The notes below the pieces were generated by a model, which did not search any database, was not told where the DNA came from, and worked only from the letters and a program-made list of their open reading frames with translations. A DNA stretch of 64,000 nucleotides from Ulva prolifera (lineage: Eukaryota; Chlorophyta; Ulvophyceae; Ulvales; Ulvaceae), in assembly GCA_023078555.1 (NCBI GenBank), contig CM041199.1, positions 1 to 64,000 of the forward strand. The letters run 5' to 3'. How positions within the stretch are numbered: position 1 is the first letter of the stretch; every line of letters starts with the position of its first letter. The position numbers and the translations under genes were made by a program. Shown piece by piece: positions 29,476-60,074 of this stretch.

Positions 29476-29477
29476 CG

Positions 29478-30230
29478 GTCAGCACATGCACAAACCGGCA
29501 CTTCATGCACAATGCCATATAAACATATCAAAACATGAGAGAGAGGCCTGACCGAGCCATGCACAGCGCATAGGGAGCAGTTTTGTGGCAATGCATGGGC
29601 TGCGATGCCCTAGCAGGCGAGCAAATCAAGTAAATGAAAGACGTGACGAACGGCATAGTGAAATAGAGGGTGTCTCCGGTGGCCGACAGAATGCCCGCAC
29701 TCTGTAAATGGTGGAGTACAGGCTCTTGCACAGCCGAATGACCGGCCTAGTGATACAGGCACTCGAGCAACCTGTGGCACACCGCACTCGATTCCGACTG
29801 CAACAGCTATCTGCAAGCTATATTTATAGACTTTACGCCGTGCTGGCGGGGGCGGCGAGGCGTGCACGCCAGCGACGCTACGTTGCAGGTACGGAGACGT
29901 GTACCGGCGAGCTCGAGTCAGGTGATGTCTTGGTGTGTCAGCTACATGTCCCCAAAGAATCAAGGCCATAACTGTTGCAGTGAACCTAGAGGTGCAGCCA
30001 CAGTGTTCTCCTGTCATGGGGGGTGGGGGCTGCAGAGTCAGCCACACGACCACCACAGCAAAAAAGCTGAATAGTGCGATCACCAGCTCCACTCCGGAAT
30101 TGCTCACACAGCATGCACATTTGGTTATCAAGGACGTGAACTGGGTTATCCGTATTGAATTCTGCTTAGCGGTTTCAGTGACGTGCAGTGTTTTCGAAAT
30201 TTGAAAGTGCCCATTTCTGTGAAAGCTGAC
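29478..30230 (+). mobile_element. Left-border E element of array 2 (subfamily B)
   Basis: A full-length 753-bp E. The outer side is unique DNA ending in CG (29476-29477); the inner side is CG (30231-30232) and core. It differs from the array 1 E at roughly a dozen positions by my count. Confidence 0.85.
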
Positions 30231-33200
30231 CGTGTGCACACCTGACTCAGTGTGTGCATATGCGCCGCGCTGCTGGCTCAAATGTGAGGAATACACACAG
30301 CACACATGATCAAGGTCACACATATGTGTAGCATACACCCTTCTCATCATGCACAAGCTGTCTCAGCTCTCAAGCTCCAAGGAGCTGTGCATGCTGCTCA
30401 TTCCAGCAAGAGGACACACAAAGACAAAAGTGTCAGGACAGCACACGCAGGCGGGCAATAGCCAATGGTAAAATATCGCATGCCACCTCGAGTGTACTGT
30501 GGCAGCGAGCTGGCTGCACATGTGACCTTGCAGTGGTCGGGGCTGTACCATATTGCTGGCACGTGCTCCATGAGCCACTCATGCAGCATGCTGGAGGTGA
30601 AAACTGATGCTTTGTGAGTCGCTAAACACATGAAATACTTGTATGTGCTCTGATGTGTTAAACAGCTGCAGCTGTGGTTAACTGGAGCCCGATAGCACTG
30701 TCAGCTCAGGCCTTCAGCAACGAGACCTGTGTGCAATCCTTTCAGCACTTCCGACCCGGAGAGCACGAGTGCGAGCGACCATGTAGTAAATACGGGAATT
30801 AAATTTGGATGTAGCTGCGGACTGGGCCGATCGTGCGGCCATCCAGACACTGCTCCCTGATGAAGCGCTTGCATGCCACGGACAGCACCGGGTCGCGCTT
30901 GCAGGCCCTTGCGAACTCGGGCAGACCGCACTAGCCAGAGACGATCCACGAGAAGCAACAGAAGCATTCATGTTGCAACTACGCGCATGATCACACACAT
31001 GTGAAGAATCATCAACTATTGCGAGCAGGTCATGTGCGACAGGCGCAACGGATACAGTGATAGCCTGCGCGACATCATCCCAGCGTGCATAGAGCATACA
31101 ACTGCTGCTCTCTCGTCATTAACATATCCGTCAATCGCTGCCTAGTACGCCAATGCCGGACAGGGAGCCGAAACTATGTACGAATGTGGCTGAGGTGACA
31201 CGCCTCCAACAGGCGCGGGCGCGGGGTTGGCCGTGCGGCCGGGTTTGCGCCGGGTGCGGCGCCACCTGATCACCGAATTGTGCAATGCACAGCATCCCTG
31301 ATGTGCCTGAAGAGGCGGCGGCTGCAACGGACGCTTAATACGGAATTTAGAAAATGAGAATACGTGTGCACACCTGACTCAGTGTGTGCATATGCGCCGC
31401 GCTGCTGGCTCAAATGTGAGGAATACACACAGCACACATGATCAAGGTCACACATATGTGTAGCATACACCCTTCTCATCATGCACAAGCTGTCTCAGCT
31501 CTCAAGCTCCAAGGAGCTGTGCATGCTGCTCATTCCAGCAAGAGGACACACAAAGACAAAAGTGTCAGGACAGCACACGCAGGCGGGCAATAGCCAATGG
31601 TAAAATATCGCATGCCACCTCGAGTGTACTGTGGCAGCGAGCTGGCTGCACATGTGACCTTGCAGTGGTCGGGGCTGTACCATATTGCTGGCACGTGCTC
31701 CATGAGCCACTCATGCAGCATGCTGGAGGTGAAAACTGATGCTTTGTGAGTCGCTAAACACATGAAATACTTGTATGTGCTCTGATGTGTTAAACAGCTG
31801 CAGCTGTGGTTAACTGGAGCCCGATAGCACTGTCAGCTCAGGCCTTCAGCAACGAGACCTGTGTGCAATCCTTTCAGCACTTCCGACCCGGAGAGCACGA
31901 GTGCGAGCGACCATGTAGTAAATACGGGAATTAAATTTGGATGTAGCTGCGGACTGGGCCGATCGTGCGGCCATCCAGACACTGCTCCCTGATGAAGCGC
32001 TTGCATGCCACGGACAGCACCGGGTCGCGCTTGCAGGCCCTTGCGAACTCGGGCAGACCGCACTAGCCAGAGACGATCCACGAGAAGCAACAGAAGCATT
32101 CATGTTGCAACTACGCGCATGATCACACACATGTGAAGAATCATCAACTATTGCGAGCAGGTCATGTGCGACAGGCGCAACGGATACAGTGATAGCCTGC
32201 GCGACATCATCCCAGCGTGCATAGAGCATACAACTGCTGCTCTCTCGTCATTAACATATCCGTCAATCGCTGCCTAGTACGCCAATGCCGGACAGGGAGC
32301 CGAAACTATGTACGAATGTGGCTGAGGTGACACGCCTCCAACAGGCGCGGGCGCGGGGTTGGCCGTGCGGCCGGGTTTGCGCCGGGTGCGGCGCCACCTG
32401 ATCACCGAATTGTGCAATGCACAGCATCCCTGATGTGCCTGAAGAGGCGGCGGCTGCAACGGACGCTTAATACGGAATTTAGAAAATGAGAATACGTGTG
32501 CACACCTGACTCAGTGTGTGCATATGCGCCGCGCTGCTGGCTCAAATGTGAGGAATACACACAGCACACATGATCAAGGTCACACATATGTGTAGCATAC
32601 ACCCTTCTCATCATGCACAAGCTGTCTCAGCTCTCAAGCTCCAAGGAGCTGTGCATGCTGCTCATTCCAGCAAGAGGACACACAAAGACAAAAGTGTCAG
32701 GACAGCACACGCAGGCGGGCAATAGCCAATGGTAAAATATCGCATGCCACCTCGAGTGTACTGTGGCAGCGAGCTGGCTGCACATGTGACCTTGCAGTGG
32801 TCGGGGCTGTACCATATTGCTGGCACGTGCTCCATGAGCCACTCATGCAGCATGCTGGAGGTGAAAACTGATGCTTTGTGAGTCGCTAAACACATGAAAT
32901 ACTTGTATGTGCTCTGATGTGTTAAACAGCTGCAGCTGTGGTTAACTGGAGCCCGATAGCACTGTCAGCTCAGGCCTTCAGCAACGAGACCTGTGTGCAA
33001 TCCTTTCAGCACTTCCGACCCGGAGAGCACGAGTGCGAGCGACCATGTAGTAAATACGGGAATTAAATTTGGATGTAGCTGCGGACTGGGCCGATCGTGC
33101 GGCCATCCAGACACTGCTCCCTGATGAAGCGCTTGCATGCCACGGACAGCACCGGGTCGCGCTTGCAGGCCCTTGCGAACTCGGGCAGACCGCACTAGCC

Positions 33201-36200
33201 AGAGACGATCCACGAGAAGCAACAGAAGCATTCATGTTGCAACTACGCGCATGATCACACACATGTGAAGAATCATCAACTATTGCGAGCAGGTCATGTG
33301 CGACAGGCGCAACGGATACAGTGATAGCCTGCGCGACATCATCCCAGCGTGCATAGAGCATACAACTGCTGCTCTCTCGTCATTAACATATCCGTCAATC
33401 GCTGCCTAGTACGCCAATGCCGGACAGGGAGCCGAAACTATGTACGAATGTGGCTGAGGTGACACGCCTCCAACAGGCGCGGGCGCGGGGTTGGCCGTGC
33501 GGCCGGGTTTGCGCCGGGTGCGGCGCCACCTGATCACCGAATTGTGCAATGCACAGCATCCCTGATGTGCCTGAAGAGGCGGCGGCTGCAACGGACGCTT
33601 AATACGGAATTTAGAAAATGAGAATACGTGTGCACACCTGACTCAGTGTGTGCATATGCGCCGCGCTGCTGGCTCAAATGTGAGGAATACACACAGCACA
33701 CATGATCAAGGTCACACATATGTGTAGCATACACCCTTCTCATCATGCACAAGCTGTCTCAGCTCTCAAGCTCCAAGGAGCTGTGCATGCTGCTCATTCC
33801 AGCAAGAGGACACACAAAGACAAAAGTGTCAGGACAGCACACGCAGGCGGGCAATAGCCAATGGTAAAATATCGCATGCCACCTCGAGTGTACTGTGGCA
33901 GCGAGCTGGCTGCACATGTGACCTTGCAGTGGTCGGGGCTGTACCATATTGCTGGCACGTGCTCCATGAGCCACTCATGCAGCATGCTGGAGGTGAAAAC
34001 TGATGCTTTGTGAGTCGCTAAACACATGAAATACTTGTATGTGCTCTGATGTGTTAAACAGCTGCAGCTGTGGTTAACTGGAGCCCGATAGCACTGTCAG
34101 CTCAGGCCTTCAGCAACGAGACCTGTGTGCAATCCTTTCAGCACTTCCGACCCGGAGAGCACGAGTGCGAGCGACCATGTAGTAAATACGGGAATTAAAT
34201 TTGGATGTAGCTGCGGACTGGGCCGATCGTGCGGCCATCCAGACACTGCTCCCTGATGAAGCGCTTGCATGCCACGGACAGCACCGGGTCGCGCTTGCAG
34301 GCCCTTGCGAACTCGGGCAGACCGCACTAGCCAGAGACGATCCACGAGAAGCAACAGAAGCATTCATGTTGCAACTACGCGCATGATCACACACATGTGA
34401 AGAATCATCAACTATTGCGAGCAGGTCATGTGCGACAGGCGCAACGGATACAGTGATAGCCTGCGCGACATCATCCCAGCGTGCATAGAGCATACAACTG
34501 CTGCTCTCTCGTCATTAACATATCCGTCAATCGCTGCCTAGTACGCCAATGCCGGACAGGGAGCCGAAACTATGTACGAATGTGGCTGAGGTGACACGCC
34601 TCCAACAGGCGCGGGCGCGGGGTTGGCCGTGCGGCCGGGTTTGCGCCGGGTGCGGCGCCACCTGATCACCGAATTGTGCAATGCACAGCATCCCTGATGT
34701 GCCTGAAGAGGCGGCGGCTGCAACGGACGCTTAATACGGAATTTAGAAAATGAGAATACGTGTGCACACCTGACTCAGTGTGTGCATATGCGCCGCGCTG
34801 CTGGCTCAAATGTGAGGAATACACACAGCACACATGATCAAGGTCACACATATGTGTAGCATACACCCTTCTCATCATGCACAAGCTGTCTCAGCTCTCA
34901 AGCTCCAAGGAGCTGTGCATGCTGCTCATTCCAGCAAGAGGACACACAAAGACAAAAGTGTCAGGACAGCACACGCAGGCGGGCAATAGCCAATGGTAAA
35001 ATATCGCATGCCACCTCGAGTGTACTGTGGCAGCGAGCTGGCTGCACATGTGACCTTGCAGTGGTCGGGGCTGTACCATATTGCTGGCACGTGCTCCATG
35101 AGCCACTCATGCAGCATGCTGGAGGTGAAAACTGATGCTTTGTGAGTCGCTAAACACATGAAATACTTGTATGTGCTCTGATGTGTTAAACAGCTGCAGC
35201 TGTGGTTAACTGGAGCCCGATAGCACTGTCAGCTCAGGCCTTCAGCAACGAGACCTGTGTGCAATCCTTTCAGCACTTCCGACCCGGAGAGCACGAGTGC
35301 GAGCGACCATGTAGTAAATACGGGAATTAAATTTGGATGTAGCTGCGGACTGGGCCGATCGTGCGGCCATCCAGACACTGCTCCCTGATGAAGCGCTTGC
35401 ATGCCACGGACAGCACCGGGTCGCGCTTGCAGGCCCTTGCGAACTCGGGCAGACCGCACTAGCCAGAGACGATCCACGAGAAGCAACAGAAGCATTCATG
35501 TTGCAACTACGCGCATGATCACACACATGTGAAGAATCATCAACTATTGCGAGCAGGTCATGTGCGACAGGCGCAACGGATACAGTGATAGCCTGCGCGA
35601 CATCATCCCAGCGTGCATAGAGCATACAACTGCTGCTCTCTCGTCATTAACATATCCGTCAATCGCTGCCTAGTACGCCAATGCCGGACAGGGAGCCGAA
35701 ACTATGTACGAATGTGGCTGAGGTGACACGCCTCCAACAGGCGCGGGCGCGGGGTTGGCCGTGCGGCCGGGTTTGCGCCGGGTGCGGCGCCACCTGATCA
35801 CCGAATTGTGCAATGCACAGCATCCCTGATGTGCCTGAAGAGGCGGCGGCTGCAACGGACGCTTAATACGGAATTTAGAAAATGAGAATACGTGTGCACA
35901 CCTGACTCAGTGTGTGCATATGCGCCGCGCTGCTGGCTCAAATGTGAGGAATACACACAGCACACATGATCAAGGTCACACATATGTGTAGCATACACCC
36001 TTCTCATCATGCACAAGCTGTCTCAGCTCTCAAGCTCCAAGGAGCTGTGCATGCTGCTCATTCCAGCAAGAGGACACACAAAGACAAAAGTGTCAGGACA
36101 GCACACGCAGGCGGGCAATAGCCAATGGTAAAATATCGCATGCCACCTCGAGTGTACTGTGGCAGCGAGCTGGCTGCACATGTGACCTTGCAGTGGTCGG

Positions 36201-37024
36201 GGCTGTACCATATTGCTGGCACGTGCTCCATGAGCCACTCATGCAGCATGCTGGAGGTGAAAACTGATGCTTTGTGAGTCGCTAAACACATGAAATACTT
36301 GTATGTGCTCTGATGTGTTAAACAGCTGCAGCTGTGGTTAACTGGAGCCCGATAGCACTGTCAGCTCAGGCCTTCAGCAACGAGACCTGTGTGCAATCCT
36401 TTCAGCACTTCCGACCCGGAGAGCACGAGTGCGAGCGACCATGTAGTAAATACGGGAATTAAATTTGGATGTAGCTGCGGACTGGGCCGATCGTGCGGCC
36501 ATCCAGACACTGCTCCCTGATGAAGCGCTTGCATGCCACGGACAGCACCGGGTCGCGCTTGCAGGCCCTTGCGAACTCGGGCAGACCGCACTAGCCAGAG
36601 ACGATCCACGAGAAGCAACAGAAGCATTCATGTTGCAACTACGCGCATGATCACACACATGTGAAGAATCATCAACTATTGCGAGCAGGTCATGTGCGAC
36701 AGGCGCAACGGATACAGTGATAGCCTGCGCGACATCATCCCAGCGTGCATAGAGCATACAACTGCTGCTCTCTCGTCATTAACATATCCGTCAATCGCTG
36801 CCTAGTACGCCAATGCCGGACAGGGAGCCGAAACTATGTACGAATGTGGCTGAGGTGACACGCCTCCAACAGGCGCGGGCGCGGGGTTGGCCGTGCGGCC
36901 GGGTTTGCGCCGGGTGCGGCGCCACCTGATCACCGAATTGTGCAATGCACAGCATCCCTGATGTGCCTGAAGAGGCGGCGGCTGCAACGGACGCTTAATA
37001 CGGAATTTAGAAAATGAGAATACG
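29478..37024 (+). repeat. Higher-order unit 1: E plus six cores (7547 bp)
   Basis: One E is followed by six subfamily-B cores joined at single CG sites. Its length, 753 + 6 x 1132 + 2, equals the distance between the corresponding points of this block and the next. Confidence 0.9.
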
Positions 37025-40000
37025 GTCAGCACATGCACAAACCGGCACTTCATGCACAATGCCATATAAACATATCAAAACATGAGAGAGAGGCCTGACC
37101 GAGCCATGCACAGCGCATAGGGAGCAGTTTTGTGGCAATGCATGGGCTGCGATGCCCTAGCAGGCGAGCAAATCAAGTAAATGAAAGACGTGACGAACGG
37201 CATAGTGAAATAGAGGGTGTCTCCGGTGGCCGACAGAATGCCCGCACTCTGTAAATGGTGGAGTACAGGCTCTTGCACAGCCGAATGACCGGCCTAGTGA
37301 TACAGGCACTCGAGCAACCTGTGGCACACCGCACTCGATTCCGACTGCAACAGCTATCTGCAAGCTATATTTATAGACTTTACGCCGTGCTGGCGGGGGC
37401 GGCGAGGCGTGCACGCCAGCGACGCTACGTTGCAGGTACGGAGACGTGTACCGGCGAGCTCGAGTCAGGTGATGTCTTGGTGTGTCAGCTACATGTCCCC
37501 AAAGAATCAAGGCCATAACTGTTGCAGTGAACCTAGAGGTGCAGCCACAGTGTTCTCCTGTCATGGGGGGTGGGGGCTGCAGAGTCAGCCACACGACCAC
37601 CACAGCAAAAAAGCTGAATAGTGCGATCACCAGCTCCACTCCGGAATTGCTCACACAGCATGCACATTTGGTTATCAAGGACGTGAACTGGGTTATCCGT
37701 ATTGAATTCTGCTTAGCGGTTTCAGTGACGTGCAGTGTTTTCGAAATTTGAAAGTGCCCATTTCTGTGAAAGCTGACCGTGTGCACACCTGACTCAGTGT
37801 GTGCATATGCGCCGCGCTGCTGGCTCAAATGTGAGGAATACACACAGCACACATGATCAAGGTCACACATATGTGTAGCATACACCCTTCTCATCATGCA
37901 CAAGCTGTCTCAGCTCTCAAGCTCCAAGGAGCTGTGCATGCTGCTCATTCCAGCAAGAGGACACACAAAGACAAAAGTGTCAGGACAGCACACGCAGGCG
38001 GGCAATAGCCAATGGTAAAATATCGCATGCCACCTCGAGTGTACTGTGGCAGCGAGCTGGCTGCACATGTGACCTTGCAGTGGTCGGGGCTGTACCATAT
38101 TGCTGGCACGTGCTCCATGAGCCACTCATGCAGCATGCTGGAGGTGAAAACTGATGCTTTGTGAGTCGCTAAACACATGAAATACTTGTATGTGCTCTGA
38201 TGTGTTAAACAGCTGCAGCTGTGGTTAACTGGAGCCCGATAGCACTGTCAGCTCAGGCCTTCAGCAACGAGACCTGTGTGCAATCCTTTCAGCACTTCCG
38301 ACCCGGAGAGCACGAGTGCGAGCGACCATGTAGTAAATACGGGAATTAAATTTGGATGTAGCTGCGGACTGGGCCGATCGTGCGGCCATCCAGACACTGC
38401 TCCCTGATGAAGCGCTTGCATGCCACGGACAGCACCGGGTCGCGCTTGCAGGCCCTTGCGAACTCGGGCAGACCGCACTAGCCAGAGACGATCCACGAGA
38501 AGCAACAGAAGCATTCATGTTGCAACTACGCGCATGATCACACACATGTGAAGAATCATCAACTATTGCGAGCAGGTCATGTGCGACAGGCGCAACGGAT
38601 ACAGTGATAGCCTGCGCGACATCATCCCAGCGTGCATAGAGCATACAACTGCTGCTCTCTCGTCATTAACATATCCGTCAATCGCTGCCTAGTACGCCAA
38701 TGCCGGACAGGGAGCCGAAACTATGTACGAATGTGGCTGAGGTGACACGCCTCCAACAGGCGCGGGCGCGGGGTTGGCCGTGCGGCCGGGTTTGCGCCGG
38801 GTGCGGCGCCACCTGATCACCGAATTGTGCAATGCACAGCATCCCTGATGTGCCTGAAGAGGCGGCGGCTGCAACGGACGCTTAATACGGAATTTAGAAA
38901 ATGAGAATACGTGTGCACACCTGACTCAGTGTGTGCATATGCGCCGCGCTGCTGGCTCAAATGTGAGGAATACACACAGCACACATGATCAAGGTCACAC
39001 ATATGTGTAGCATACACCCTTCTCATCATGCACAAGCTGTCTCAGCTCTCAAGCTCCAAGGAGCTGTGCATGCTGCTCATTCCAGCAAGAGGACACACAA
39101 AGACAAAAGTGTCAGGACAGCACACGCAGGCGGGCAATAGCCAATGGTAAAATATCGCATGCCACCTCGAGTGTACTGTGGCAGCGAGCTGGCTGCACAT
39201 GTGACCTTGCAGTGGTCGGGGCTGTACCATATTGCTGGCACGTGCTCCATGAGCCACTCATGCAGCATGCTGGAGGTGAAAACTGATGCTTTGTGAGTCG
39301 CTAAACACATGAAATACTTGTATGTGCTCTGATGTGTTAAACAGCTGCAGCTGTGGTTAACTGGAGCCCGATAGCACTGTCAGCTCAGGCCTTCAGCAAC
39401 GAGACCTGTGTGCAATCCTTTCAGCACTTCCGACCCGGAGAGCACGAGTGCGAGCGACCATGTAGTAAATACGGGAATTAAATTTGGATGTAGCTGCGGA
39501 CTGGGCCGATCGTGCGGCCATCCAGACACTGCTCCCTGATGAAGCGCTTGCATGCCACGGACAGCACCGGGTCGCGCTTGCAGGCCCTTGCGAACTCGGG
39601 CAGACCGCACTAGCCAGAGACGATCCACGAGAAGCAACAGAAGCATTCATGTTGCAACTACGCGCATGATCACACACATGTGAAGAATCATCAACTATTG
39701 CGAGCAGGTCATGTGCGACAGGCGCAACGGATACAGTGATAGCCTGCGCGACATCATCCCAGCGTGCATAGAGCATACAACTGCTGCTCTCTCGTCATTA
39801 ACATATCCGTCAATCGCTGCCTAGTACGCCAATGCCGGACAGGGAGCCGAAACTATGTACGAATGTGGCTGAGGTGACACGCCTCCAACAGGCGCGGGCG
39901 CGGGGTTGGCCGTGCGGCCGGGTTTGCGCCGGGTGCGGCGCCACCTGATCACCGAATTGTGCAATGCACAGCATCCCTGATGTGCCTGAAGAGGCGGCGG

Positions 40001-43000
40001 CTGCAACGGACGCTTAATACGGAATTTAGAAAATGAGAATACGTGTGCACACCTGACTCAGTGTGTGCATATGCGCCGCGCTGCTGGCTCAAATGTGAGG
40101 AATACACACAGCACACATGATCAAGGTCACACATATGTGTAGCATACACCCTTCTCATCATGCACAAGCTGTCTCAGCTCTCAAGCTCCAAGGAGCTGTG
40201 CATGCTGCTCATTCCAGCAAGAGGACACACAAAGACAAAAGTGTCAGGACAGCACACGCAGGCGGGCAATAGCCAATGGTAAAATATCGCATGCCACCTC
40301 GAGTGTACTGTGGCAGCGAGCTGGCTGCACATGTGACCTTGCAGTGGTCGGGGCTGTACCATATTGCTGGCACGTGCTCCATGAGCCACTCATGCAGCAT
40401 GCTGGAGGTGAAAACTGATGCTTTGTGAGTCGCTAAACACATGAAATACTTGTATGTGCTCTGATGTGTTAAACAGCTGCAGCTGTGGTTAACTGGAGCC
40501 CGATAGCACTGTCAGCTCAGGCCTTCAGCAACGAGACCTGTGTGCAATCCTTTCAGCACTTCCGACCCGGAGAGCACGAGTGCGAGCGACCATGTAGTAA
40601 ATACGGGAATTAAATTTGGATGTAGCTGCGGACTGGGCCGATCGTGCGGCCATCCAGACACTGCTCCCTGATGAAGCGCTTGCATGCCACGGACAGCACC
40701 GGGTCGCGCTTGCAGGCCCTTGCGAACTCGGGCAGACCGCACTAGCCAGAGACGATCCACGAGAAGCAACAGAAGCATTCATGTTGCAACTACGCGCATG
40801 ATCACACACATGTGAAGAATCATCAACTATTGCGAGCAGGTCATGTGCGACAGGCGCAACGGATACAGTGATAGCCTGCGCGACATCATCCCAGCGTGCA
40901 TAGAGCATACAACTGCTGCTCTCTCGTCATTAACATATCCGTCAATCGCTGCCTAGTACGCCAATGCCGGACAGGGAGCCGAAACTATGTACGAATGTGG
41001 CTGAGGTGACACGCCTCCAACAGGCGCGGGCGCGGGGTTGGCCGTGCGGCCGGGTTTGCGCCGGGTGCGGCGCCACCTGATCACCGAATTGTGCAATGCA
41101 CAGCATCCCTGATGTGCCTGAAGAGGCGGCGGCTGCAACGGACGCTTAATACGGAATTTAGAAAATGAGAATACGTGTGCACACCTGACTCAGTGTGTGC
41201 ATATGCGCCGCGCTGCTGGCTCAAATGTGAGGAATACACACAGCACACATGATCAAGGTCACACATATGTGTAGCATACACCCTTCTCATCATGCACAAG
41301 CTGTCTCAGCTCTCAAGCTCCAAGGAGCTGTGCATGCTGCTCATTCCAGCAAGAGGACACACAAAGACAAAAGTGTCAGGACAGCACACGCAGGCGGGCA
41401 ATAGCCAATGGTAAAATATCGCATGCCACCTCGAGTGTACTGTGGCAGCGAGCTGGCTGCACATGTGACCTTGCAGTGGTCGGGGCTGTACCATATTGCT
41501 GGCACGTGCTCCATGAGCCACTCATGCAGCATGCTGGAGGTGAAAACTGATGCTTTGTGAGTCGCTAAACACATGAAATACTTGTATGTGCTCTGATGTG
41601 TTAAACAGCTGCAGCTGTGGTTAACTGGAGCCCGATAGCACTGTCAGCTCAGGCCTTCAGCAACGAGACCTGTGTGCAATCCTTTCAGCACTTCCGACCC
41701 GGAGAGCACGAGTGCGAGCGACCATGTAGTAAATACGGGAATTAAATTTGGATGTAGCTGCGGACTGGGCCGATCGTGCGGCCATCCAGACACTGCTCCC
41801 TGATGAAGCGCTTGCATGCCACGGACAGCACCGGGTCGCGCTTGCAGGCCCTTGCGAACTCGGGCAGACCGCACTAGCCAGAGACGATCCACGAGAAGCA
41901 ACAGAAGCATTCATGTTGCAACTACGCGCATGATCACACACATGTGAAGAATCATCAACTATTGCGAGCAGGTCATGTGCGACAGGCGCAACGGATACAG
42001 TGATAGCCTGCGCGACATCATCCCAGCGTGCATAGAGCATACAACTGCTGCTCTCTCGTCATTAACATATCCGTCAATCGCTGCCTAGTACGCCAATGCC
42101 GGACAGGGAGCCGAAACTATGTACGAATGTGGCTGAGGTGACACGCCTCCAACAGGCGCGGGCGCGGGGTTGGCCGTGCGGCCGGGTTTGCGCCGGGTGC
42201 GGCGCCACCTGATCACCGAATTGTGCAATGCACAGCATCCCTGATGTGCCTGAAGAGGCGGCGGCTGCAACGGACGCTTAATACGGAATTTAGAAAATGA
42301 GAATACGTGTGCACACCTGACTCAGTGTGTGCATATGCGCCGCGCTGCTGGCTCAAATGTGAGGAATACACACAGCACACATGATCAAGGTCACACATAT
42401 GTGTAGCATACACCCTTCTCATCATGCACAAGCTGTCTCAGCTCTCAAGCTCCAAGGAGCTGTGCATGCTGCTCATTCCAGCAAGAGGACACACAAAGAC
42501 AAAAGTGTCAGGACAGCACACGCAGGCGGGCAATAGCCAATGGTAAAATATCGCATGCCACCTCGAGTGTACTGTGGCAGCGAGCTGGCTGCACATGTGA
42601 CCTTGCAGTGGTCGGGGCTGTACCATATTGCTGGCACGTGCTCCATGAGCCACTCATGCAGCATGCTGGAGGTGAAAACTGATGCTTTGTGAGTCGCTAA
42701 ACACATGAAATACTTGTATGTGCTCTGATGTGTTAAACAGCTGCAGCTGTGGTTAACTGGAGCCCGATAGCACTGTCAGCTCAGGCCTTCAGCAACGAGA
42801 CCTGTGTGCAATCCTTTCAGCACTTCCGACCCGGAGAGCACGAGTGCGAGCGACCATGTAGTAAATACGGGAATTAAATTTGGATGTAGCTGCGGACTGG
42901 GCCGATCGTGCGGCCATCCAGACACTGCTCCCTGATGAAGCGCTTGCATGCCACGGACAGCACCGGGTCGCGCTTGCAGGCCCTTGCGAACTCGGGCAGA

Positions 43001-44573
43001 CCGCACTAGCCAGAGACGATCCACGAGAAGCAACAGAAGCATTCATGTTGCAACTACGCGCATGATCACACACATGTGAAGAATCATCAACTATTGCGAG
43101 CAGGTCATGTGCGACAGGCGCAACGGATACAGTGATAGCCTGCGCGACATCATCCCAGCGTGCATAGAGCATACAACTGCTGCTCTCTCGTCATTAACAT
43201 ATCCGTCAATCGCTGCCTAGTACGCCAATGCCGGACAGGGAGCCGAAACTATGTACGAATGTGGCTGAGGTGACACGCCTCCAACAGGCGCGGGCGCGGG
43301 GTTGGCCGTGCGGCCGGGTTTGCGCCGGGTGCGGCGCCACCTGATCACCGAATTGTGCAATGCACAGCATCCCTGATGTGCCTGAAGAGGCGGCGGCTGC
43401 AACGGACGCTTAATACGGAATTTAGAAAATGAGAATACGTGTGCACACCTGACTCAGTGTGTGCATATGCGCCGCGCTGCTGGCTCAAATGTGAGGAATA
43501 CACACAGCACACATGATCAAGGTCACACATATGTGTAGCATACACCCTTCTCATCATGCACAAGCTGTCTCAGCTCTCAAGCTCCAAGGAGCTGTGCATG
43601 CTGCTCATTCCAGCAAGAGGACACACAAAGACAAAAGTGTCAGGACAGCACACGCAGGCGGGCAATAGCCAATGGTAAAATATCGCATGCCACCTCGAGT
43701 GTACTGTGGCAGCGAGCTGGCTGCACATGTGACCTTGCAGTGGTCGGGGCTGTACCATATTGCTGGCACGTGCTCCATGAGCCACTCATGCAGCATGCTG
43801 GAGGTGAAAACTGATGCTTTGTGAGTCGCTAAACACATGAAATACTTGTATGTGCTCTGATGTGTTAAACAGCTGCAGCTGTGGTTAACTGGAGCCCGAT
43901 AGCATTGTCAGCTCAGGCCTTCAGCAACGAGACCTGTGTGCAATCCTTTCAGCACTTCCGACCCGGAGAGCACGATTGCGAGCGACCATGTAGTAAATAC
44001 GGGAATTAAATTTGGATGTAGCTGCGGACTGGGCCGATCGTGCGGCCATCCAGACACTGCTCCCTGATGAAGCGCTTGCATGCCACGGACAGCACCGGGT
44101 CGCGCTTGCAGGCCCTTGCGAACTCGGGCAGACCGCACTAGCCAGAGACGATCCACGAGAAGCAACAGAAGCATTCATGTTGCAACTACGCGCATGATCA
44201 CACACATGTGAAGAATCATCAACTAATTGCGAGCAGGTCATGTGCGACAGGCGCAACGGATACAGTGATAGCCTGCGCGACATCATCCCAGCGTGCATAG
44301 AACATACAACTGCTGCTCTCTCGTCATTAACATATCCGTCAATCGCTGTCTAGTACGCCAATGCCGGACAGGGAGCCGAAACTATGTACGAATGTGGCTG
44401 AGGTGACACGCCTCCAACAGGCGCGGGCGCGGGGTTGGCCGTGCGGCCGGGTTTGCGCCGGGTGCGGCGCCACCTGATGCACCGAATTGTGCAATGCACA
44501 GCATCCCTGATGTGCCTGAAGAGGCGGCGGCTGCAACGGACGCTTAATACGGAATTTAGAAAATGAGAATACG
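37025..44573 (+). repeat. Higher-order unit 2: E plus six cores (7549 bp), sixth core chimeric
   Basis: A near-exact copy of the preceding block: E at 37025-37777, then six cores. The sixth core (43440-44571) begins with B-specific bases (ACTCAGTG at its start, GCACATGTG near 43722) and from about 43904 carries C/A-type bases (AGCATTG, CGATTG). It also has two single-base insertions (near 44225 and 44480), which give the 2-bp excess. Confidence 0.9.
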
Positions 44574-47500: not shown

Positions 47501-50500
47501 CCGAATTGTGCAATGCACAGCATCCCTGATGTGCCTGAAGAGGCGGCGGCTGCAACGGACGCTTAATACGGAATTTAGAAAATGAGAATACGGTCAGCAC
47601 ATGCACAAACCGGCACTTCATGCACAATGCCATATAAACATATCAAAACATGAGAGAGAGGCCTGACCGAGCCATGCACAGCGCATAGGGAGCAGTTTTG
47701 TGGCAATGCATGGGCTACGATGCCCTAGCAGGCGAGCAAATCAAGTAAATGAAAGACGAGACGAACGGCATAGTGAAATAGAGGGTGTCTCCGGTGGCCG
47801 ACAGAATGCCCGCACTCTGTAAATGGTGGAGTACAGGCTCTTGCACAGCCGAGTGACCGGCCTAGTGATACAGGCACTCGAGCAACCTGTGGCACACCGC
47901 ACTCAATTCCGACTGCAACAGCTATCTGCAAACTATATTTATAGACTTTACGCCGTGCTGGCGGGGGCGGCGAGGCGTGCACGCCAGCGACGCTACGTTG
48001 CAGGTACGGAGACGTGTACCGGCGAGCTCGAGTCAGGTGATGTCTTGGTGTGTCAGCTACATGTCCCCAAAGAATCAAGGCCATAACTGTTGCAGTGAAC
48101 CTAGAGGTGCAGCCACAGTGTTCTCCTGTCATGGGGGGTGGGGGCTGCAGAGTCAGCCACACGACCACCACAGCAAAAAAGCTGAATAGTGCGATCACCA
48201 GCTCCACTCCGGAACTGCTCACACAGCATGCACATTTGGTTATCAAGGACGTGAACTGGGTTATCCGTATTGAATTCTGCTTAGCGGTTTCAGTGACGTG
48301 CAGTGTTTTCGAAATTTGAAAGTGCCCATTTCTGTGAAAGCTGACCGTGTGCACACCTGACTCGGTGTGTGCATATGCGCCGCGCTGCTGGCTCAAATGT
48401 GAGGAATACACACAGCACACATGATCAAGGTCACACATATGTGTAGCATACACCCTTCTCATCATGCACAAGCTGTCTCAGCTCTCAAGCTCCAAGGAGC
48501 TGTGCATGCTGCTCATTCCAGCAAGAGGACACACAAAGACAAAAGTGTCAGGACAGCACACGCAGGCGGGCAATAGCCAATGGTAAAATATCGCATGCCA
48601 CCTCGAGTGTACTGTGGCAGCGAGCTGGCTGCATATGTGACCTTGCAGTGGTCGGGGCTGTACCATATTGCTGGCACGTGCTCCATGAGCCACTCATGCA
48701 GCATGCTGGAGGTGAAAACTGATGCTTTGTGAGTCGCTAAACACATGAAATACTTGTATGTGCTCTGATGTGTTAAACAGCTGCAGCTGTGGTTAACTGG
48801 AGCCCGATAGCATTGTCAGCTCAGGCCTTCAGCAACGAGACCTGTGTGCAATCCTTTCAGCACTTCCGACCCGGAGAGCACGATTGCGAGCGACCATGTA
48901 GTAAATACGGGAATTAAATTTGGATGTAGCTGCGGACTGGGCCGATCGTGCGGCCATCCAGACACTGCTCCCTGATGAAGCGCTTGCATGCCACGGACAG
49001 CACCGGGTCGCGCTTGCAGGCCCTTGCGAACTCGGGCAGACCGCACTAGCCAGAGACGATCCACGAGAAGCAACAGAAGCATTCATGTTGCAACTACGCG
49101 CATGATCACACACATGTGAAGAATCATCAACAATTGCGAGCAGGTCATGTGCGACAGGCGCAACGGATACAGTGATAGCCTGCGCGACATCATCCCAGCG
49201 TGCATAGAACATACAACTGCTGCTCTCTCGTCATTAACATATCCGTCAATCGCTGTCTAGTACGCCAATGCCGGACAGGGAGCCGAAACTATGTACGAAT
49301 GTGGCTGAGGTGACACGCCTCCAACAGGCGCGGGCGCGGGGTTGGCCGTGCGGCCGGGTTTGCGCCGGGTGCGGCGCCACCTGATCACCGAATTGTGCAA
49401 TGCACAGCATCCCTGATGTGCCTGAAGAGGCGGCGGCTGCAACGGACGCTTAATACGGAATTTAGAAAATGAGAATACGTGTGCACACCTGACTCGGTGT
49501 GTGCATATGCGCCGCGCTGCTGGCTCAAATGTGAGGAATACACACAGCACACATGATCAAGGTCACACATATGTGTAGCATACACCCTTCTCATCATGCA
49601 CAAGCTGTCTCAGCTCTCAAGCTCCAAGGAGCTGTGCATGCTGCTCATTCCAGCAAGAGGACACACAAAGACAAAAGTGTCAGGACAGCACACGCAGGCG
49701 GGCAATAGCCAATGGTAAAATATCGCATGCCACCTCGAGTGTACTGTGGCAGCGAGCTGGCTGCATATGTGACCTTGCAGTGGTCGGGGCTGTACCATAT
49801 TGCTGGCACGTGCTCCATGAGCCACTCATGCAGCATGCTGGAGGTGAAAACTGATGCTTTGTGAGTCGCTAAACACATGAAATACTTGTATGTGCTCTGA
49901 TGTGTTAAACAGCTGCAGCTGTGGTTAACTGGAGCCCGATAGCATTGTCAGCTCAGGCCTTCAGCAACGAGACCTGTGTGCAATCCTTTCAGCACTTCCG
50001 ACCCGGAGAGCACGATTGCGAGCGACCATGTAGTAAATACGGGAATTAAATTTGGATGTAGCTGCGGACTGGGCCGATCGTGCGGCCATCCAGACACTGC
50101 TCCCTGATGAAGCGCTTGCATGCCACGGACAGCACCGGGTCGCGCTTGCAGGCCCTTGCGAACTCGGGCAGACCGCACTAGCCAGAGACGATCCACGAGA
50201 AGCAACAGAAGCATTCATGTTGCAACTACGCGCATGATCACACACATGTGAAGAATCATCAACAATTGCGAGCAGGTCATGTGCGACAGGCGCAACGGAT
50301 ACAGTGATAGCCTGCGCGACATCATCCCAGCGTGCATAGAACATACAACTGCTGCTCTCTCGTCATTAACATATCCGTCAATCGCTGTCTAGTACGCCAA
50401 TGCCGGACAGGGAGCCGAAACTATGTACGAATGTGGCTGAGGTGACACGCCTCCAACAGGCGCGGGCGCGGGGTTGGCCGTGCGGCCGGGTTTGCGCCGG

Positions 50501-50611
50501 GTGCGGCGCCACCTGATCACCGAATTGTGCAATGCACAGCATCCCTGATGTGCCTGAAGAGGCGGCGGCTGCAACGGACGCTTAATACGGAATTTAGAAA
50601 ATGAGAATACG
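44574..50611 (+). repeat. Two E-core-core blocks (2 x 3019 bp), subfamily C
   Basis: E at 44574-45326 with two cores, then E at 47593-48345 with two cores. Subfamily C markers are GACGAGACG instead of GACGTGACG, GGAACTGC instead of GGAATTGC, ACTCGGTG and CAACAATTG. At several sites where B differs from A, C carries the A base, so those bases are probably ancestral and B is derived. Confidence 0.9.
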
Positions 50612-53600
50612 GTCAGCACATGCACAAACCGGCACTTCATGCACAATGCCATATAAACATATCAAAACATGAGAGAGAGGCCTGACCGAGCCATGCACAG
50701 CGCATAGGGAGCAGTTTTGTGGCAATGCATGGGCTACGATGCCCTAGCAGGCGAGCAAATCAAGTAAATGAAAGACGAGACGAACGGCATAGTGAAATAG
50801 AGGGTGTCTCCGGTGGCCGACAGAATGCCCGCACTCTGTAAATGGTGGAGTACAGGCTCTTGCACAGCCGAGTGACCGGCCTAGTGATACAGGCACTCGA
50901 GCAACCTGTGGCACACCGCACTCAATTCCGACTGCAACAGCTATCTGCAAACTATATTTATAGACTTTACGCCGTGCTGGCGGGGGCGGCGAGGCGTGCA
51001 CGCCAGCGACGCTACGTTGCAGGTACGGAGACGTGTACCGGCGAGCTCGAGTCAGGTGATGTCTTGGTGTGTCAGCTACATGTCCCCAAAGAATCAAGGC
51101 CATAACTGTTGCAGTGAACCTAGAGGTGCAGCCACAGTGTTCTCCTGTCATGGGGGGTGGGGGCTGCAGAGTCAGCCACACGACCACCACAGCAAAAAAG
51201 CTGAATAGTGCGATCACCAGCTCCACTCCGGAACTGCTCACACAGCATGCACATTTGGTTATCAAGGACGTGAACTGGGTTATCCGTATTGAATTCTGCT
51301 TAGCGGTTTCAGTGACGTGCAGTGTTTTCGAAATTTGAAAGTGCCCATTTCTGTGAAAGCTGACCGTGTGCACACCTGACTCGGTGTGTGCATATGCGCC
51401 GCGCTGCTGGCTCAAATGTGAGGAATACACACAGCACACATGATCAAGGTCACACATATGTGTAGCATACACCCTTCTCATCATGCACAAGCTGTCTCAG
51501 CTCTCAAGCTCCAAGGAGCTGTGCATGCTGCTCATTCCAGCAAGAGGACACACAAAGACAAAAGTGTCAGGACAGCACACGCAGGCGGGCAATAGCCAAT
51601 GGTAAAATATCGCATGCCACCTCGAGTGTACTGTGGCAGCGAGCTGGCTGCATATGTGACCTTGCAGTGGTCGGGGCTGTACCATATTGCTGGCACGTGC
51701 TCCATGAGCCACTCATGCAGCATGCTGGAGGTGAAAACTGATGCTTTGTGAGTCGCTAAACACATGAAATACTTGTATGTGCTCTGATGTGTTAAACAGC
51801 TGCAGCTGTGGTTAACTGGAGCCCGATAGCATTGTCAGCTCAGGCCTTCAGCAACGAGACCTGTGTGCAATCCTTTCAGCACTTCCGACCCGGAGAGCAC
51901 GATTGCGAGCGACCATGTAGTAAATACGGGAGTTAAATTTGGATGTAGCTGCGGACTGGGCCGATCGTGCGGCCATCCAGACACTGCTCCCTGATGAAGC
52001 GCTTGCATGCCACGGACAGCACCGGGTCGCGCTTGCAGGCCCTTGCGAACTCGGGCAGACCGCACTAGCCAGAGACGATCCACGAGAAGCAACAGAAGCA
52101 TTCATGTTGCAACTACGCGCATGATCACACACATGTGAAGAATCATCAACAATTGCGAGCAGGTCATGTGCGACAGGCGCAACGGATACAGTGATAGCCT
52201 GCGCGACATCATCCCAGCGTGCATAGAACATACAACTGCTGCTCTCTCGTCATTAACATATCCGTCAATCGCTGTCTAGTACGCCAATGCCGGACAGGGA
52301 GCCGAAACTATGTACGAATGTGGCTGAGGTGACACGCCTCCAACAGGCGCGGGCGCGGGGTTGGCCGTGCGGCCGGGTTTGCGCCGGGTGCGGCGCCACC
52401 TGATCACCGAATTGTGCAATGCACAGCATCCCTGATGTGCCTGAAGAGGCGGCGGCTGCAACGGACGCTTAATACGGAATTTAGAAAATGAGAATACGGT
52501 CAGCACATGCACAAACCGGCACTTCATGCACAATGCCATATAAACATATCAAAACATGAGAGAGAGGCCTGACCGAGCCATGCACAGCGCATAGGGAGCA
52601 GTTTTGTGGCAATGCATGGGCTACGATGCCCTAGCAGGCGAGCAAATCAAGTAAATGAAAGACGAGACGAACGGCATAGTGAAATAGAGGGTGTCTCCGG
52701 TGGCCGACAGAATGCCCGCACTCTGTAAATGGTGGAGTACAGGCTCTTGCACAGCCGAGTGACCGGCCTAGTGATACAGGCACTCGAGCAACCTGTGGCA
52801 CACCGCACTCAATTCCGACTGCAACAGCTATCTGCAAACTATATTTATAGACTTTACGCCGTGCTGGCGGGGGCGGCGAGGCGTGCACGCCAGCGACGCT
52901 ACGTTGCAGGTACGGAGACGTGTACCGGCGAGCTCGAGTCAGGTGATGTCTTGGTGTGTCAGCTACATGTCCCCAAAGAATCAAGGCCATAACTGTTGCA
53001 GTGAACCTAGAGGTGCAGCCACAGTGTTCTCCTGTCATGGGGGGTGGGGGCTGCAGAGTCAGCCACACGACCACCACAGCAAAAAAGCTGAATAGTGCGA
53101 TCACCAGCTCCACTCCGGAACTGCTCACACAGCATGCACATTTGGTTATCAAGGACGTGAACTGGGTTATCCGTATTGAATTCTGCTTAGCGGTTTCAGT
53201 GACGTGCAGTGTTTTCGAAATTTGAAAGTGCCCATTTCTGTGAAAGCTGACCGTGTGCACACCTGACTCGGTGTGTGCATATGCGCCGCGCTGCTGGCTC
53301 AAATGTGAGGAATACACACAGCACACATGATCAAGGTCACACATATGTGTAGCATACACCCTTCTCATCATGCACAAGCTGTCTCAGCTCTCAAGCTCCA
53401 AGGAGCTGTGCATGCTGCTCATTCCAGCAAGAGGACACACAAAGACAAAAGTGTCAGGACAGCACACGCAGGCGGGCAATAGCCAATGGTAAAATATCGC
53501 ATGCCACCTCGAGTGTACTGTGGCAGCGAGCTGGCTGCATATGTGACCTTGCAGTGGTCGGGGCTGTACCATATTGCTGGCACGTGCTCCATGAGCCACT

Positions 53601-56600
53601 CATGCAGCATGCTGGAGGTGAAAACTGATGCTTTGTGAGTCGCTAAACACATGAAATACTTGTATGTGCTCTGATGTGTTAAACAGCTGCAGCTGTGGTT
53701 AACTGGAGCCCGATAGCATTGTCAGCTCAGGCCTTCAGCAACGAGACCTGTGTGCAATCCTTTCAGCACTTCCGACCCGGAGAGCACGATTGCGAGCGAC
53801 CATGTAGTAAATACGGGAATTAAATTTGGATGTAGCTGCGGACTGGGCCGATCGTGCGGCCATCCAGACACTGCTCCCTGATGAAGCGCTTGCATGCCAC
53901 GGACAGCACCGGGTCGCGCTTGCAGGCCCTTGCGAACTCGGGCAGACCGCACTAGCCAGAGACGATCCACGAGAAGCAACAGAAGCATTCATGTTGCAAC
54001 TACGCGCATGATCACACACATGTGAAGAATCATCAACAATTGCGAGCAGGTCATGTGCGACAGGCGCAACGGATACAGTGATAGCCTGCGCGACATCATC
54101 CCAGCGTGCATAGAACATACAACTGCTGCTCTCTCGTCATTAACATATCCGTCAATCGCTGTCTAGTACGCCAATGCCGGACAGGGAGCCGAAACTATGT
54201 ACGAATGTGGCTGAGGTGACACGCCTCCAACAGGCGCGGGCGCGGGGTTGGCCGTGCGGCCGGGTTTGCGCCGGGTGCGGCGCCACCTGATCACCGAATT
54301 GTGCAATGCACAGCATCCCTGATGTGCCTGAAGAGGCGGCGGCTGCAACGGACGCTTAATACGGAATTTAGAAAATGAGAATACGGTCAGCACATGCACA
54401 AACCGGCACTTCATGCACAATGCCATATAAACATATCAAAACATGAGAGAGAGGCCTGACCGAGCCATGCACAGCGCATAGGGAGCAGTTTTGTGGCAAT
54501 GCATGGGCTACGATGCCCTAGCAGGCGAGCAAATCAAGTAAATGAAAGACGAGACGAACGGCATAGTGAAATAGAGGGTGTCTCCGGTGGCCGACAGAAT
54601 GCCCGCACTCTGTAAATGGTGGAGTACAGGCTCTTGCACAGCCGAGTGACCGGCCTAGTGATACAGGCACTCGAGCAACCTGTGGCACACCGCACTCAAT
54701 TCCGACTGCAACAGCTATCTGCAAACTATATTTATAGACTTTACGCCGTGCTGGCGGGGGCGGCGAGGCGTGCACGCCAGCGACGCTACGTTGCAGGTAC
54801 GGAGACGTGTACCGGCGAGCTCGAGTCAGGTGATGTCTTGGTGTGTCAGCTACATGTCCCCAAAGAATCAAGGCCATAACTGTTGCAGTGAACCTAGAGG
54901 TGCAGCCACAGTGTTCTCCTGTCATGGGGGGTGGGGGCTGCAGAGTCAGCCACACGACCACCACAGCAAAAAAGCTGAATAGTGCGATCACCAGCTCCAC
55001 TCCGGAACTGCTCACACAGCATGCACATTTGGTTATCAAGGACGTGAACTGGGTTATCCGTATTGAATTCTGCTTAGCGGTTTCAGTGACGTGCAGTGTT
55101 TTCGAAATTTGAAAGTGCCCATTTCTGTGAAAGCTGACCGTGTGCACACCTGACTCGGTGTGTGCATATGCGCCGCGCTGCTGGCTCAAATGTGAGGAAT
55201 ACACACAGCACACATGATCAAGGTCACACATATGTGTAGCATACACCCTTCTCATCATGCACAAGCTGTCTCAGCTCTCAAGCTCCAAGGAGCTGTGCAT
55301 GCTGCTCATTCCAGCAAGAGGACACACAAAGACAAAAGTGTCAGGACAGCACACGCAGGCGGGCAATAGCCAATGGTAAAATATCGCATGCCACCTCGAG
55401 TGTACTGTGGCAGCGAGCTGGCTGCATATGTGACCTTGCAGTGGTCGGGGCTGTACCATATTGCTGGCACGTGCTCCATGAGCCACTCATGCAGCATGCT
55501 GGAGGTGAAAACTGATGCTTTGTGAGTCGCTAAACACATGAAATACTTGTATGTGCTCTGATGTGTTAAACAGCTGCAGCTGTGGTTAACTGGAGCCCGA
55601 TAGCATTGTCAGCTCAGGCCTTCAGCAACGAGACCTGTGTGCAATCCTTTCAGCACTTCCGACCCGGAGAGCACGATTGCGAGCGACCATGTAGTAAATA
55701 CGGGAATTAAATTTGGATGTAGCTGCGGACTGGGCCGATCGTGCGGCCATCCAGACACTGCTCCCTGATGAAGCGCTTGCATGCCACGGACAGCACCGGG
55801 TCGCGCTTGCAGGCCCTTGCGAACTCGGGCAGACCGCACTAGCCAGAGACGATCCACGAGAAGCAACAGAAGCATTCATGTTGCAACTACGCGCATGATC
55901 ACACACATGTGAAGAATCATCAACAATTGCGAGCAGGTCATGTGCGACAGGCGCAACGGATACAGTGATAGCCTGCGCGACATCATCCCAGCGTGCATAG
56001 AACATACAACTGCTGCTCTCTCGTCATTAACATATCCGTCAATCGCTGTCTAGTACGCCAATGCCGGACAGGGAGCCGAAACTATGTACGAATGTGGCTG
56101 AGGTGACACGCCTCCAACAGGCGCGGGCGCGGGGTTGGCCGTGCGGCCGGGTTTGCGCCGGGTGCGGCGCCACCTGATCACCGAATTGTGCAATGCACAG
56201 CATCCCTGATGTGCCTGAAGAGGCGGCGGCTGCAACGGACGCTTAATACGGAATTTAGAAAATGAGAATACGGTCAGCACATGCACAAACCGGCACTTCA
56301 TGCACAATGCCATATAAACATATCAAAACATGAGAGAGAGGCCTGACCGAGCCATGCACAGCGCATAGGGAGCAGTTTTGTGGCAATGCATGGGCTACGA
56401 TGCCCTAGCAGGCGAGCAAATCAAGTAAATGAAAGACGAGACGAACGGCATAGTGAAATAGAGGGTGTCTCCGGTGGCCGACAGAATGCCCGCACTCTGT
56501 AAATGGTGGAGTACAGGCTCTTGCACAGCCGAGTGACCGGCCTAGTGATACAGGCACTCGAGCAACCTGTGGCACACCGCACTCAATTCCGACTGCAACA

Positions 56601-58159
56601 GCTATCTGCAAACTATATTTATAGACTTTACGCCGTGCTGGCGGGGGCGGCGAGGCGTGCACGCCAGCGACGCTACGTTGCAGGTACGGAGACGTGTACC
56701 GGCGAGCTCGAGTCAGGTGATGTCTTGGTGTGTCAGCTACATGTCCCCAAAGAATCAAGGCCATAACTGTTGCAGTGAACCTAGAGGTGCAGCCACAGTG
56801 TTCTCCTGTCATGGGGGGTGGGGGCTGCAGAGTCAGCCACACGACCACCACAGCAAAAAAGCTGAATAGTGCGATCACCAGCTCCACTCCGGAACTGCTC
56901 ACACAGCATGCACATTTGGTTATCAAGGACGTGAACTGGGTTATCCGTATTGAATTCTGCTTAGCGGTTTCAGTGACGTGCAGTGTTTTCGAAATTTGAA
57001 AGTGCCCATTTCTGTGAAAGCTGACCGTGTGCACACCTGACTCGGTGTGTGCATATGCGCCGCGCTGCTGGCTCAAATGTGAGGAATACACACAGCACAC
57101 ATGATCAAGGTCACACATATGTGTAGCATACACCCTTCTCATCATGCACAAGCTGTCTCAGCTCTCAAGCTCCAAGGAGCTGTGCATGCTGCTCATTCCA
57201 GCAAGAGGACACACAAAGACAAAAGTGTCAGGACAGCACACGCAGGCGGGCAATAGCCAATGGTAAAATATCGCATGCCACCTCGAGTGTACTGTGGCAG
57301 CGAGCTGGCTGCATATGTGACCTTGCAGTGGTCGGGGCTGTACCATATTGCTGGCACGTGCTCCATGAGCCACTCATGCAGCATGCTGGAGGTGAAAACT
57401 GATGCTTTGTGAGTCGCTAAACACATGAAATACTTGTATGTGCTCTGATGTGTTAAACAGCTGCAGCTGTGGTTAACTGGAGCCCGATAGCATTGTCAGC
57501 TCAGGCCTTCAGCAACGAGACCTGTGTGCAATCCTTTCAGCACTTCCGACCCGGAGAGCACGATTGCGAGCGACCATGTAGTAAATACGGGAATTAAATT
57601 TGGATGTAGCTGCGGACTGGGCCGATCGTGCGGCCATCCAGACACTGCTCCCTGATGAAGCGCTTGCATGCCACGGACAGCACCGGGTCGCGCTTGCAGG
57701 CCCTTGCGAACTCGGGCAGACCGCACTAGCCAGAGACGATCCACGAGAAGCAACAGAAGCATTCATGTTGCAACTACGCGCATGATCACACACATGTGAA
57801 GAATCATCAACAATTGCGAGCAGGTCATGTGCGACAGGCGCAACGGATACAGTGATAGCCTGCGCGACATCATCCCAGCGTGCATAGAACATACAACTGC
57901 TGCTCTCTCGTCATTAACATATCCGTCAATCGCTGTCTAGTACGCCAATGCCGGACAGGGAGCCGAAACTATGTACGAATGTGGCTGAGGTGACACGCCT
58001 CCAACAGGCGCGGGCGCGGGGTTGGCCGTGCGGCCGGGTTTGCGCCGGGTGCGGCGCCACCTGATCACCGAATTGTGCAATGCACAGCATCCCTGATGTG
58101 CCTGAAGAGGCGGCGGCTGCAACGGACGCTTAATACGGAATTTAGAAAATGAGAATACG
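50612..58159 (+). repeat. Four E-core units (4 x 1887 bp), subfamily C
   Basis: E copies begin at 50612, 52499, 54386 and 56273, each followed by one core. They are identical except for one private change in the first core (GGGAGTTAAA for GGGAATTAAA near 51932). Confidence 0.9.
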
Positions 58160-58912
58160 GTCAGCACATGCACAAACCGGCACTTCATGCACAATGCCAT
58201 ATAAACATATCAAAACATGAGAGAGAGGCCTGACCGAGCCATGCACAGCGCATAGGGAGCAGTTTTGTGGCAATGCATGGGCTACGATGCCCTAGCAGGC
58301 GGGCAAATCAAGTAAATGAAAGACGAGACGAACGGCATAGTGAAATAGAGGGTGTCTCCGGTGGCCGACAGAATGCCCGCACTCTGTAAATGGTGGAGTA
58401 CAGGCTCTTGCACAGCCGAGTGACCGGCCTAGTGATACAGGCACTCGAGCAACCTGTGGCACACCGCACTCAATTCCGACTGCAACAGCTATCTGCAAAC
58501 TATATTTATAGACTTTACGCCGTGCTGGCGGGGGCGGCGAGGCGTGCACGCCAGCGACGCTACGTTGCAGGTACGGAGACGTGTACCGGCGAGCTCGAGT
58601 CAGGTGATGTCTTGGTGTGTCAGCTACATGTCCCCAAAGAATCAAGGCCATAACTGTTGCAGTGAACCTAGAGGTGCAGCCACAGTGTTCTCCTGTCATG
58701 GGGGGTGGGGGCTGCAGAGTCAGCCACACGACCACCACAGCAAAAAAGCTGAATAGTGCGATCACCAGCTCCACTCCGGAACTGCTCACACAGCATGCAC
58801 ATTTGGTTATCAAGGACGTGAACTGGGTTATCCGTATTGAATTCTGCTTAGCGGTTTCAGTGACGTGCAGTGTTTTCGAAATTTGAAAGTGCCCATTTCT
58901 GTGAAAGCTGAC
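58160..58912 (+). mobile_element. Right-border E element of array 2 (subfamily C)
   Basis: A full-length E with one private change (GCGGGCAAATC near 58301). Its right end GCTGAC is followed by CG (58913-58914) and then by unique CTTGAGCAGCC instead of core, marking the precise end of the satellite. Confidence 0.85.
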
Positions 58913-58930
58913 CGCTTGAGCAGCCAGGCT

Positions 58931-59754: not shown

Positions 59755-60074
59755 TGCCACACCGACCATTAGCAGGCCAGATCCAAATTACGAATGAGGT
59801 CCATATCTTACCCAGACAATCCAGCGTTGCACCAGCCTATAAGGCGAATCCTAGACGCATATGTGCGTCGCAATTATATCCTGCTGTGCTCCTTTCCAAC
59901 ATAATGTGTCCACACATTTCCAAGCTCGGTCTGCCGGACCTGCATGTGCGCTGTAGCTTTCGCAACAGCTTGCAATGGCTTTCCAGTGTTCTTCATCTGC
60001 GGAGACTGCTTGGCCTGGTCTCGCGCTATGGAAGAGCAAACGCGTACGTTCCGGTCAGCGCTGTTGCCCAGGAT

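Follow-up and report, generated by a model that had tools for sequence, protein, structure and literature searches.

Satellite DNAs that are framed by mobile elements, or born from them, are already known, and MITEs, Helitrons, tandem LTR elements and transposable element dimers have all been implicated. How satellite arrays come to arise at new places in a genome is not settled, and their borders mostly lack a mark that can be read. According to the available text of PMC4270019, the ends of two separate Ac/Ds elements of maize can act together, and the composite insertions of this system, in which transposon termini surround copied DNA, can carry a target-site duplication. For P elements, an en-bloc 'macrotransposition' of two nearby copies is named in the text available (PMC1562414). 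Arrays of tandem LTR-retrotransposons are described as flanked by target-site duplications (PMC11899658). Among the satellites examined in PMC5139131, only one had junctions that mapped non-randomly, which makes exact borders the exception there. One search of an open-access library found no paper naming both a macrotransposon and satellite DNA, and a search there on CG duplications in Chlamydomonas gave no match.

We analysed a window of 64,000 nucleotides from Ulva prolifera (contig CM041199.1, positions 1 to 64,000), in which two arrays belong to a single repeat family. Its parts are an element of 755 bp, here called E, and a core unit of 1132 bp, here called C, and both are always in the same orientation in both arrays. 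Array 2 (29477–58913) is composed of nine complete E and 20 C with no other DNA inside, in the order E-C6-E-C6-E-C2-E-C2-E-C-E-C-E-C-E-C-E and in a single orientation. On the left it opens with base 1 of an E (29477), and on the right it closes with the final base of another E (58913); a C at 29476 and a G at 58914 lie just outside, placing a CG at each outer edge. The direct repeat common to the two outer edges is this 2 bp CG, and lengths of 3 to 11 mismatch. An earlier note on this DNA had described the array as bounded by the exact outer termini of E with CG outside, and this is confirmed; of the positions that it gave, 29476 is the C of the left outer CG and 58914 the G of the right one. 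The coordinates of the principal features are shown in Table 1.

Table 1. Features of the two arrays and of the DNA beside array 2 (window coordinates).
Feature	Position	Strand	Description
Array 1	1–23719	+	same E and C, third sub-family; extends beyond the left edge of the window
Single N	23720		array 1 stops here inside E; probable scaffold seam
Left flank	29417–29476		ends ...GAGATCTCGG followed by the C of the outer CG
Leftmost E	29477–30231	+	755 bp, begins exactly at the border; sub-family 2L; no difference from the E at 37024
Left 27 bases of E	29477–29503	+	imperfect terminal inverted repeat; 19/27 match the reverse complement of the other end
First core unit C	30232–31363	+	1132 bp
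Sub-array 2L	29477–43438	+	E-C6-E then five more C of 2L type; both E identical, as are all 11 C
Hybrid C	43439–44572	+	2L to position 288 (43726), 2R from position 467 (43905); extra bases at 44224 and 44479
Sub-array 2R	44573–58913	+	E-C2-E-C2-E-C-E-C-E-C-E-C-E; 7 E, 8 C
Rightmost E	58159–58913	+	ends exactly at the border; one difference from the E at 47592
Right flank start	58914–58926		G of the outer CG and 12 bases before a 92-bp tandem repeat

Array 1 opens with a partial E (1–608), holds 11 complete E and 13 C, and closes with 93 bases of another E (23627–23719). The 11 complete E are all identical, as are 12 of the C; the thirteenth C (22498–23626) is error-rich, with 6 differences in its first 750 bases and 42 in its last 475, and is followed by the truncated E and the N. 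The right end of array 1, where errors rise over ∼475 bases before the N, is thus probably a contig end and not a scorable border. Since array 1 also leaves the window at its left edge, the window holds only two scorable borders, those of array 2. With just two such borders, an accident of unequal crossing-over might be supposed to have placed an E terminus at each; for uniform phase, the chance of two exact E-terminus borders is ∼3e-7 when any of the 1887 phases is counted, and ∼1e-6 when two special phases are admitted at each border. The exact borders are therefore real and beyond chance, and accident is an extremely improbable explanation for them. A CG at both outer edges would arise by chance alone with a probability of ∼0.006, the product given by a flank CG frequency of 0.079.

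The ends of E are inverted repeats. E begins GGTCAGC and ends GCTGACC, such that all seven outermost positions match, and the 27-base terminal repeat reads as GGTCAGC, 13 loosely matching bases and GGCACTT. None of 403,860 control pairs of internal segments reaches 19 matches in 27, and 18 of them match the exact first seven bases. The E end motif together with CG, allowing up to 3 mismatches, occurs 42 times where 2.9 occurrences are expected, and every one of these is an E end within the two arrays. No solo E was found in the ∼10.8 kb of non-array DNA in the window. Ten of the 38 pieces of at least 45 aa, of the longest type and taken from one E-C-E stretch, were compared with Pfam, and neither a transposase nor a remnant of one was found in these pieces of E and C; matches to TMTC_DUF1736, Glyco_hydro_36C and DUF3693 each fell below the curated cut-off and were taken as chance. 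By its sequence E looks like a TIR DNA transposon; the pieces tested from E and C gave no coding match, and E would be non-autonomous.

A minus-strand open reading frame runs across the E-C junction (29610–30356 and 1874–2614, with equivalents in other repeats), and is 246 aa long in array 1 (11 copies) and 248 aa in array 2 (8 copies). A coding role for these frames was considered and set aside, as the two tested gave no Pfam match. No Rfam family was found across the window at gathering thresholds. Searches with exact patterns (the E end and C in viral contigs, the E end in prokaryote contigs) gave no match, a eukaryotic element being unexpected there. E-C likewise had no match by blastn among plasmids, a collection without eukaryotic genomes and so uninformative on relatives of the host.

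Two other classes of element were considered for E and rejected. LTRs end in TG...CA, and LTR-retrotransposons make target-site duplications of 4–6 bp. The ends of E are GGTCAGC and GCTGACC rather than TG...CA, the repeat at the edges of array 2 is 2 bp only, and there are 13 C-C junctions; E is therefore not taken as an LTR. Helitrons insert between A and T and have 5' TC and 3' CTRR ends. The inverted ends of E, and borders in which C precedes GGTCAGC and G follows GCTGACC, without Helitron termini, led us to reject a Helitron or other rolling-circle element.

Junctions within the window comprise 20 C-E, 20 E-C and 13 C-C, together with one between the left flank and E and one between E and the right flank; there are no E-E junctions. 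CG is present at every one of them, which bears out the claim of the earlier note that CG flanks every internal E. The site lacking E reads AATA-CG-TGTG, with one CG, in 13 of 13 C-C junctions, and the same site with E reads AATA-CG-GTCAGC...GCTGAC-CG-TGTG, with two CGs across C-E-C. Because the E-less core junctions hold a single CG, the insertion of E would fit either a 2-bp duplication of CG or entry between C and G without duplication. Each C starts (e.g. at 31363–31373) with a perfect palindrome, GTGTGCACAC, right at the insertion point of E. The palindrome beside the C-C junction folds strongly, in that none of 200 shuffles equals it, and the fold sits on one side of the junction, with just 2 pairs spanning it; as only these 2 pairs cross, we make no claim for a target hairpin.

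Variation among the copies was tabulated for 20 complete E and 31 C, leaving out the partial and truncated E and the error-rich C of array 1, and the hybrid C of array 2. The copies sort into three types at 15 variable sites in E and 31 in C. Array 1 is separated from 2L by 12 sites in E and by 28 in C, and 2L from 2R by 6 sites in E and 7 in C. The E positions that separate 2L from 2R are 126, 168, 262, 314, 341 and 624, and at all six the leftmost E of array 2 is wholly 2L and the rightmost E wholly 2R. In 2R, six E are identical and the last has one change, at position 144; one of its eight C carries one change. Copies are near-identical within each sub-array type, and each sub-array has thus undergone recent, local homogenisation or amplification.

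Array 2 is therefore a mosaic whose sub-families switch once, between 43726 and 43905, inside the hybrid C, a feature that the earlier note does not mention, as it does not mention the N at the end of array 1. Two 1-bp insertions are confined to this unit, whereas the 31 other C units aligned are free of indels, and the extra base at 44224 brings the T found in one type next to the A found in the other (44224–44225). Either a genuine crossover or a false join in the assembly may lie behind the hybrid C. Because of these signs of a seam, the two borders of array 2 may belong to different molecules, and array 2 could be an assembly product in which two arrays, or two haplotypes, were joined within a C unit. 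Beyond the single switch and the insertions, the right end of array 1, with its rising errors followed by an N, shows that this assembly has such ends. Nonetheless, a true crossover between sub-arrays would account for the hybrid C equally well, the rest of array 2 is error-free, and each border, still an E terminus at a CG, would need its own explanation; the weak hairpin over the joined flanks described below also leans to continuity. We consider a false join improbable.

The history that we tentatively favour, and which we regard as possible rather than probable, is that a segment E-(C)n-E moved by composite transposition and then expanded. The non-autonomous TIR transposon E would once have inserted at a CG within the 1132-bp satellite unit C, and C units with and without E would then have been amplified together; we infer this order because all arrays seen share one insertion point. 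A transposase supplied from elsewhere would have acted on the left end of one E together with the right end of a second, like-oriented E, and would have moved the segment that they enclose to the CG lying between the present flanks. Unequal exchange, or a similar form of copying, would subsequently have enlarged the segment inward, the outermost E termini being kept as borders. No giant jump is needed, because the minimal segment, E-C-E, is 2642 bp.

The copies at the edges fit such a history. The leftmost E is the same as the next E, the rightmost E is one base off its neighbours, and neither edge shows signs of an older, diverged E. Against it, the E and C pieces compared with Pfam gave no transposase, the non-array DNA of the window holds no solo E, only one target is known besides C, and the halves of array 2 are different sub-families with a switch that is possibly an assembly seam; the continuity of the two halves is presumed in the favoured history. 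The macro-transposon proposed in the earlier note survives in part. Both scorable borders are exact E termini beside CG, E has inverted ends of TIR type, and the E copies at the edges show no greater divergence than those inside, which is compatible with a move of E-(C)n-E as a unit. What does not follow is that the outermost ends acted as one transposon, since recombination into a single resident E predicts identical borders, and the mosaic of 2L and 2R, with its seam-like switch, means that the borders may come from separate molecules.

Such a resident E would be a solo copy that had transposed to this CG. E-C repeats, as a circle or as a length of copied DNA, would later have come in through homologous recombination or gap repair within it and turned it into E-(C)n-E, so that the outer parts of the terminal E copies should derive from the resident E. 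The borders would then be E termini because the resident E was itself a transposon insertion, and the same borders, outer CG and inverted ends are expected. A single switch from 2L to 2R inside one C would likewise result if two donor arrays had served in a two-ended repair, and a recombination origin is discussed for tandem LTR-retrotransposon arrays, which border at element ends, in the text available of PMC11899658. The six separating positions speak against it, with the leftmost E all 2L and the rightmost all 2R: had one resident E been split between the two borders, exchange must have occurred before position 126 or after position 624, about one third of E, barring later homogenisation. 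This confinement to roughly the outer third of E, unless the copies were homogenised, lends mild support to composite transposition. There is also no solo E in the window. On balance we judge seeding at a resident E, the main rival, to be somewhat unlikely.

A further possibility is that a larger E-C array was cut back by deletions arising from transposition at E ends, in which case the flanks were never joined at one CG. Trimming of this kind yields E termini beside CG at both borders, and maize offers established cases of alternative transposition in which separate elements contribute the ends (PMC4270019). Two independent events would be required, however, and the flanks hold no remnant of C; by blastn against the window they show no match to E or C. 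When the flanks are joined at one CG, an imperfect hairpin spans the join, and 6 of 200 shuffles are as good. Among controls from this window, hairpins at least as good in energy and crossing pairs together arise in 35 and 24 of 1710 swapped flanks, in 56 of 852 natural CG sites and in 207 of 5000 joins made at random. Energy alone is equalled in 190 and 185 of 1710 swapped flanks, 125 of 852 CG sites and 746 of 5000 random joins, and crossing pairs alone in 279 and 198 of 1710 swapped flanks, 174 of 852 CG sites and 989 of 5000 joins. The hairpin is a weak sign that the flanks were once continuous; as such it counts weakly for composite transposition and leans away from trimming, which we regard as very unlikely.

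Starting 13 bp past the right border of array 2 is a 92-bp tandem repeat (58927–59754) of 9.0 copies that are 99% alike, the first unit being one base off the others. It does not extend across the joined flanks, where 3000 of 3000 controls equal the joined score, and it therefore adds nothing on flank continuity; the score of the left flank alone against this repeat is equalled by 1918 of 2000 controls. A 30-bp tandem repeat of 3.7 copies lies at 60070–60181. The sole clear gene match in the window is an exon resembling LCAT-like lipases/acyltransferases at 24491–24796 (PF02450, E-value 8.3e-9), which also has a weak match to the monoacylglycerol lipase 6qe2_A.

In array 2, both readable borders are marked. 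Should E termini beside CG prove to bound further arrays of the family as well, the step that seeds an array becomes testable by comparison of strains, where an empty site, a solo E, an E-C-E and a long array at the same CG would place the events in order. A broader proposal is that the satellite travels as the cargo of a composite transposon, seeding arrays at CG sites across the genome whose borders would regularly be element termini. Because E sits in the repeats in one orientation, any two of its copies could serve as the outer ends of such a cargo. We hold this genome-wide version to be doubtful.

The resemblance to maize Ac/Ds lies in the outer borders of array 2, which are the outward ends of two element copies (29477 and 58913). 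The maize events (PMC4270019) were caught as they happened, their transposase is known and their duplications are 8 bp long, whereas in array 2 E recurs inside and the cargo is a satellite. Tandem LTR-retrotransposons that share LTRs form arrays that start and end with a repeated terminal module, as array 2 does (PMC11899658, text available). Array 2 is unlike them in that E lacks TG...CA, the flank repeat is 2 bp, and 13 C-C junctions are without E. In the Helitron and Helentron satellites of molluscs, too, a mobile element carries the arrays and forms their borders (PMC7492417, PMC5139131), and E differs from a Helitron in its inverted ends. Transposable element dimers formed by double insertion (McGurk and Barbash, as related in the available text of PMC12628747) similarly make transposon copies the source of a tandem array, although array 2 has no E-E junction. 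The Xenopus MITEs Xstir and miDNA4 are cases of tandem repeats that are framed by a non-autonomous TIR element and able to grow into a satellite (PMC12628747). There the repeats sit between the two ends of one element, while array 2 is framed and interspersed by E. What sets this locus apart is that complete, direct-oriented copies of a TIR element serve as both the frame and an interior component of the satellite.
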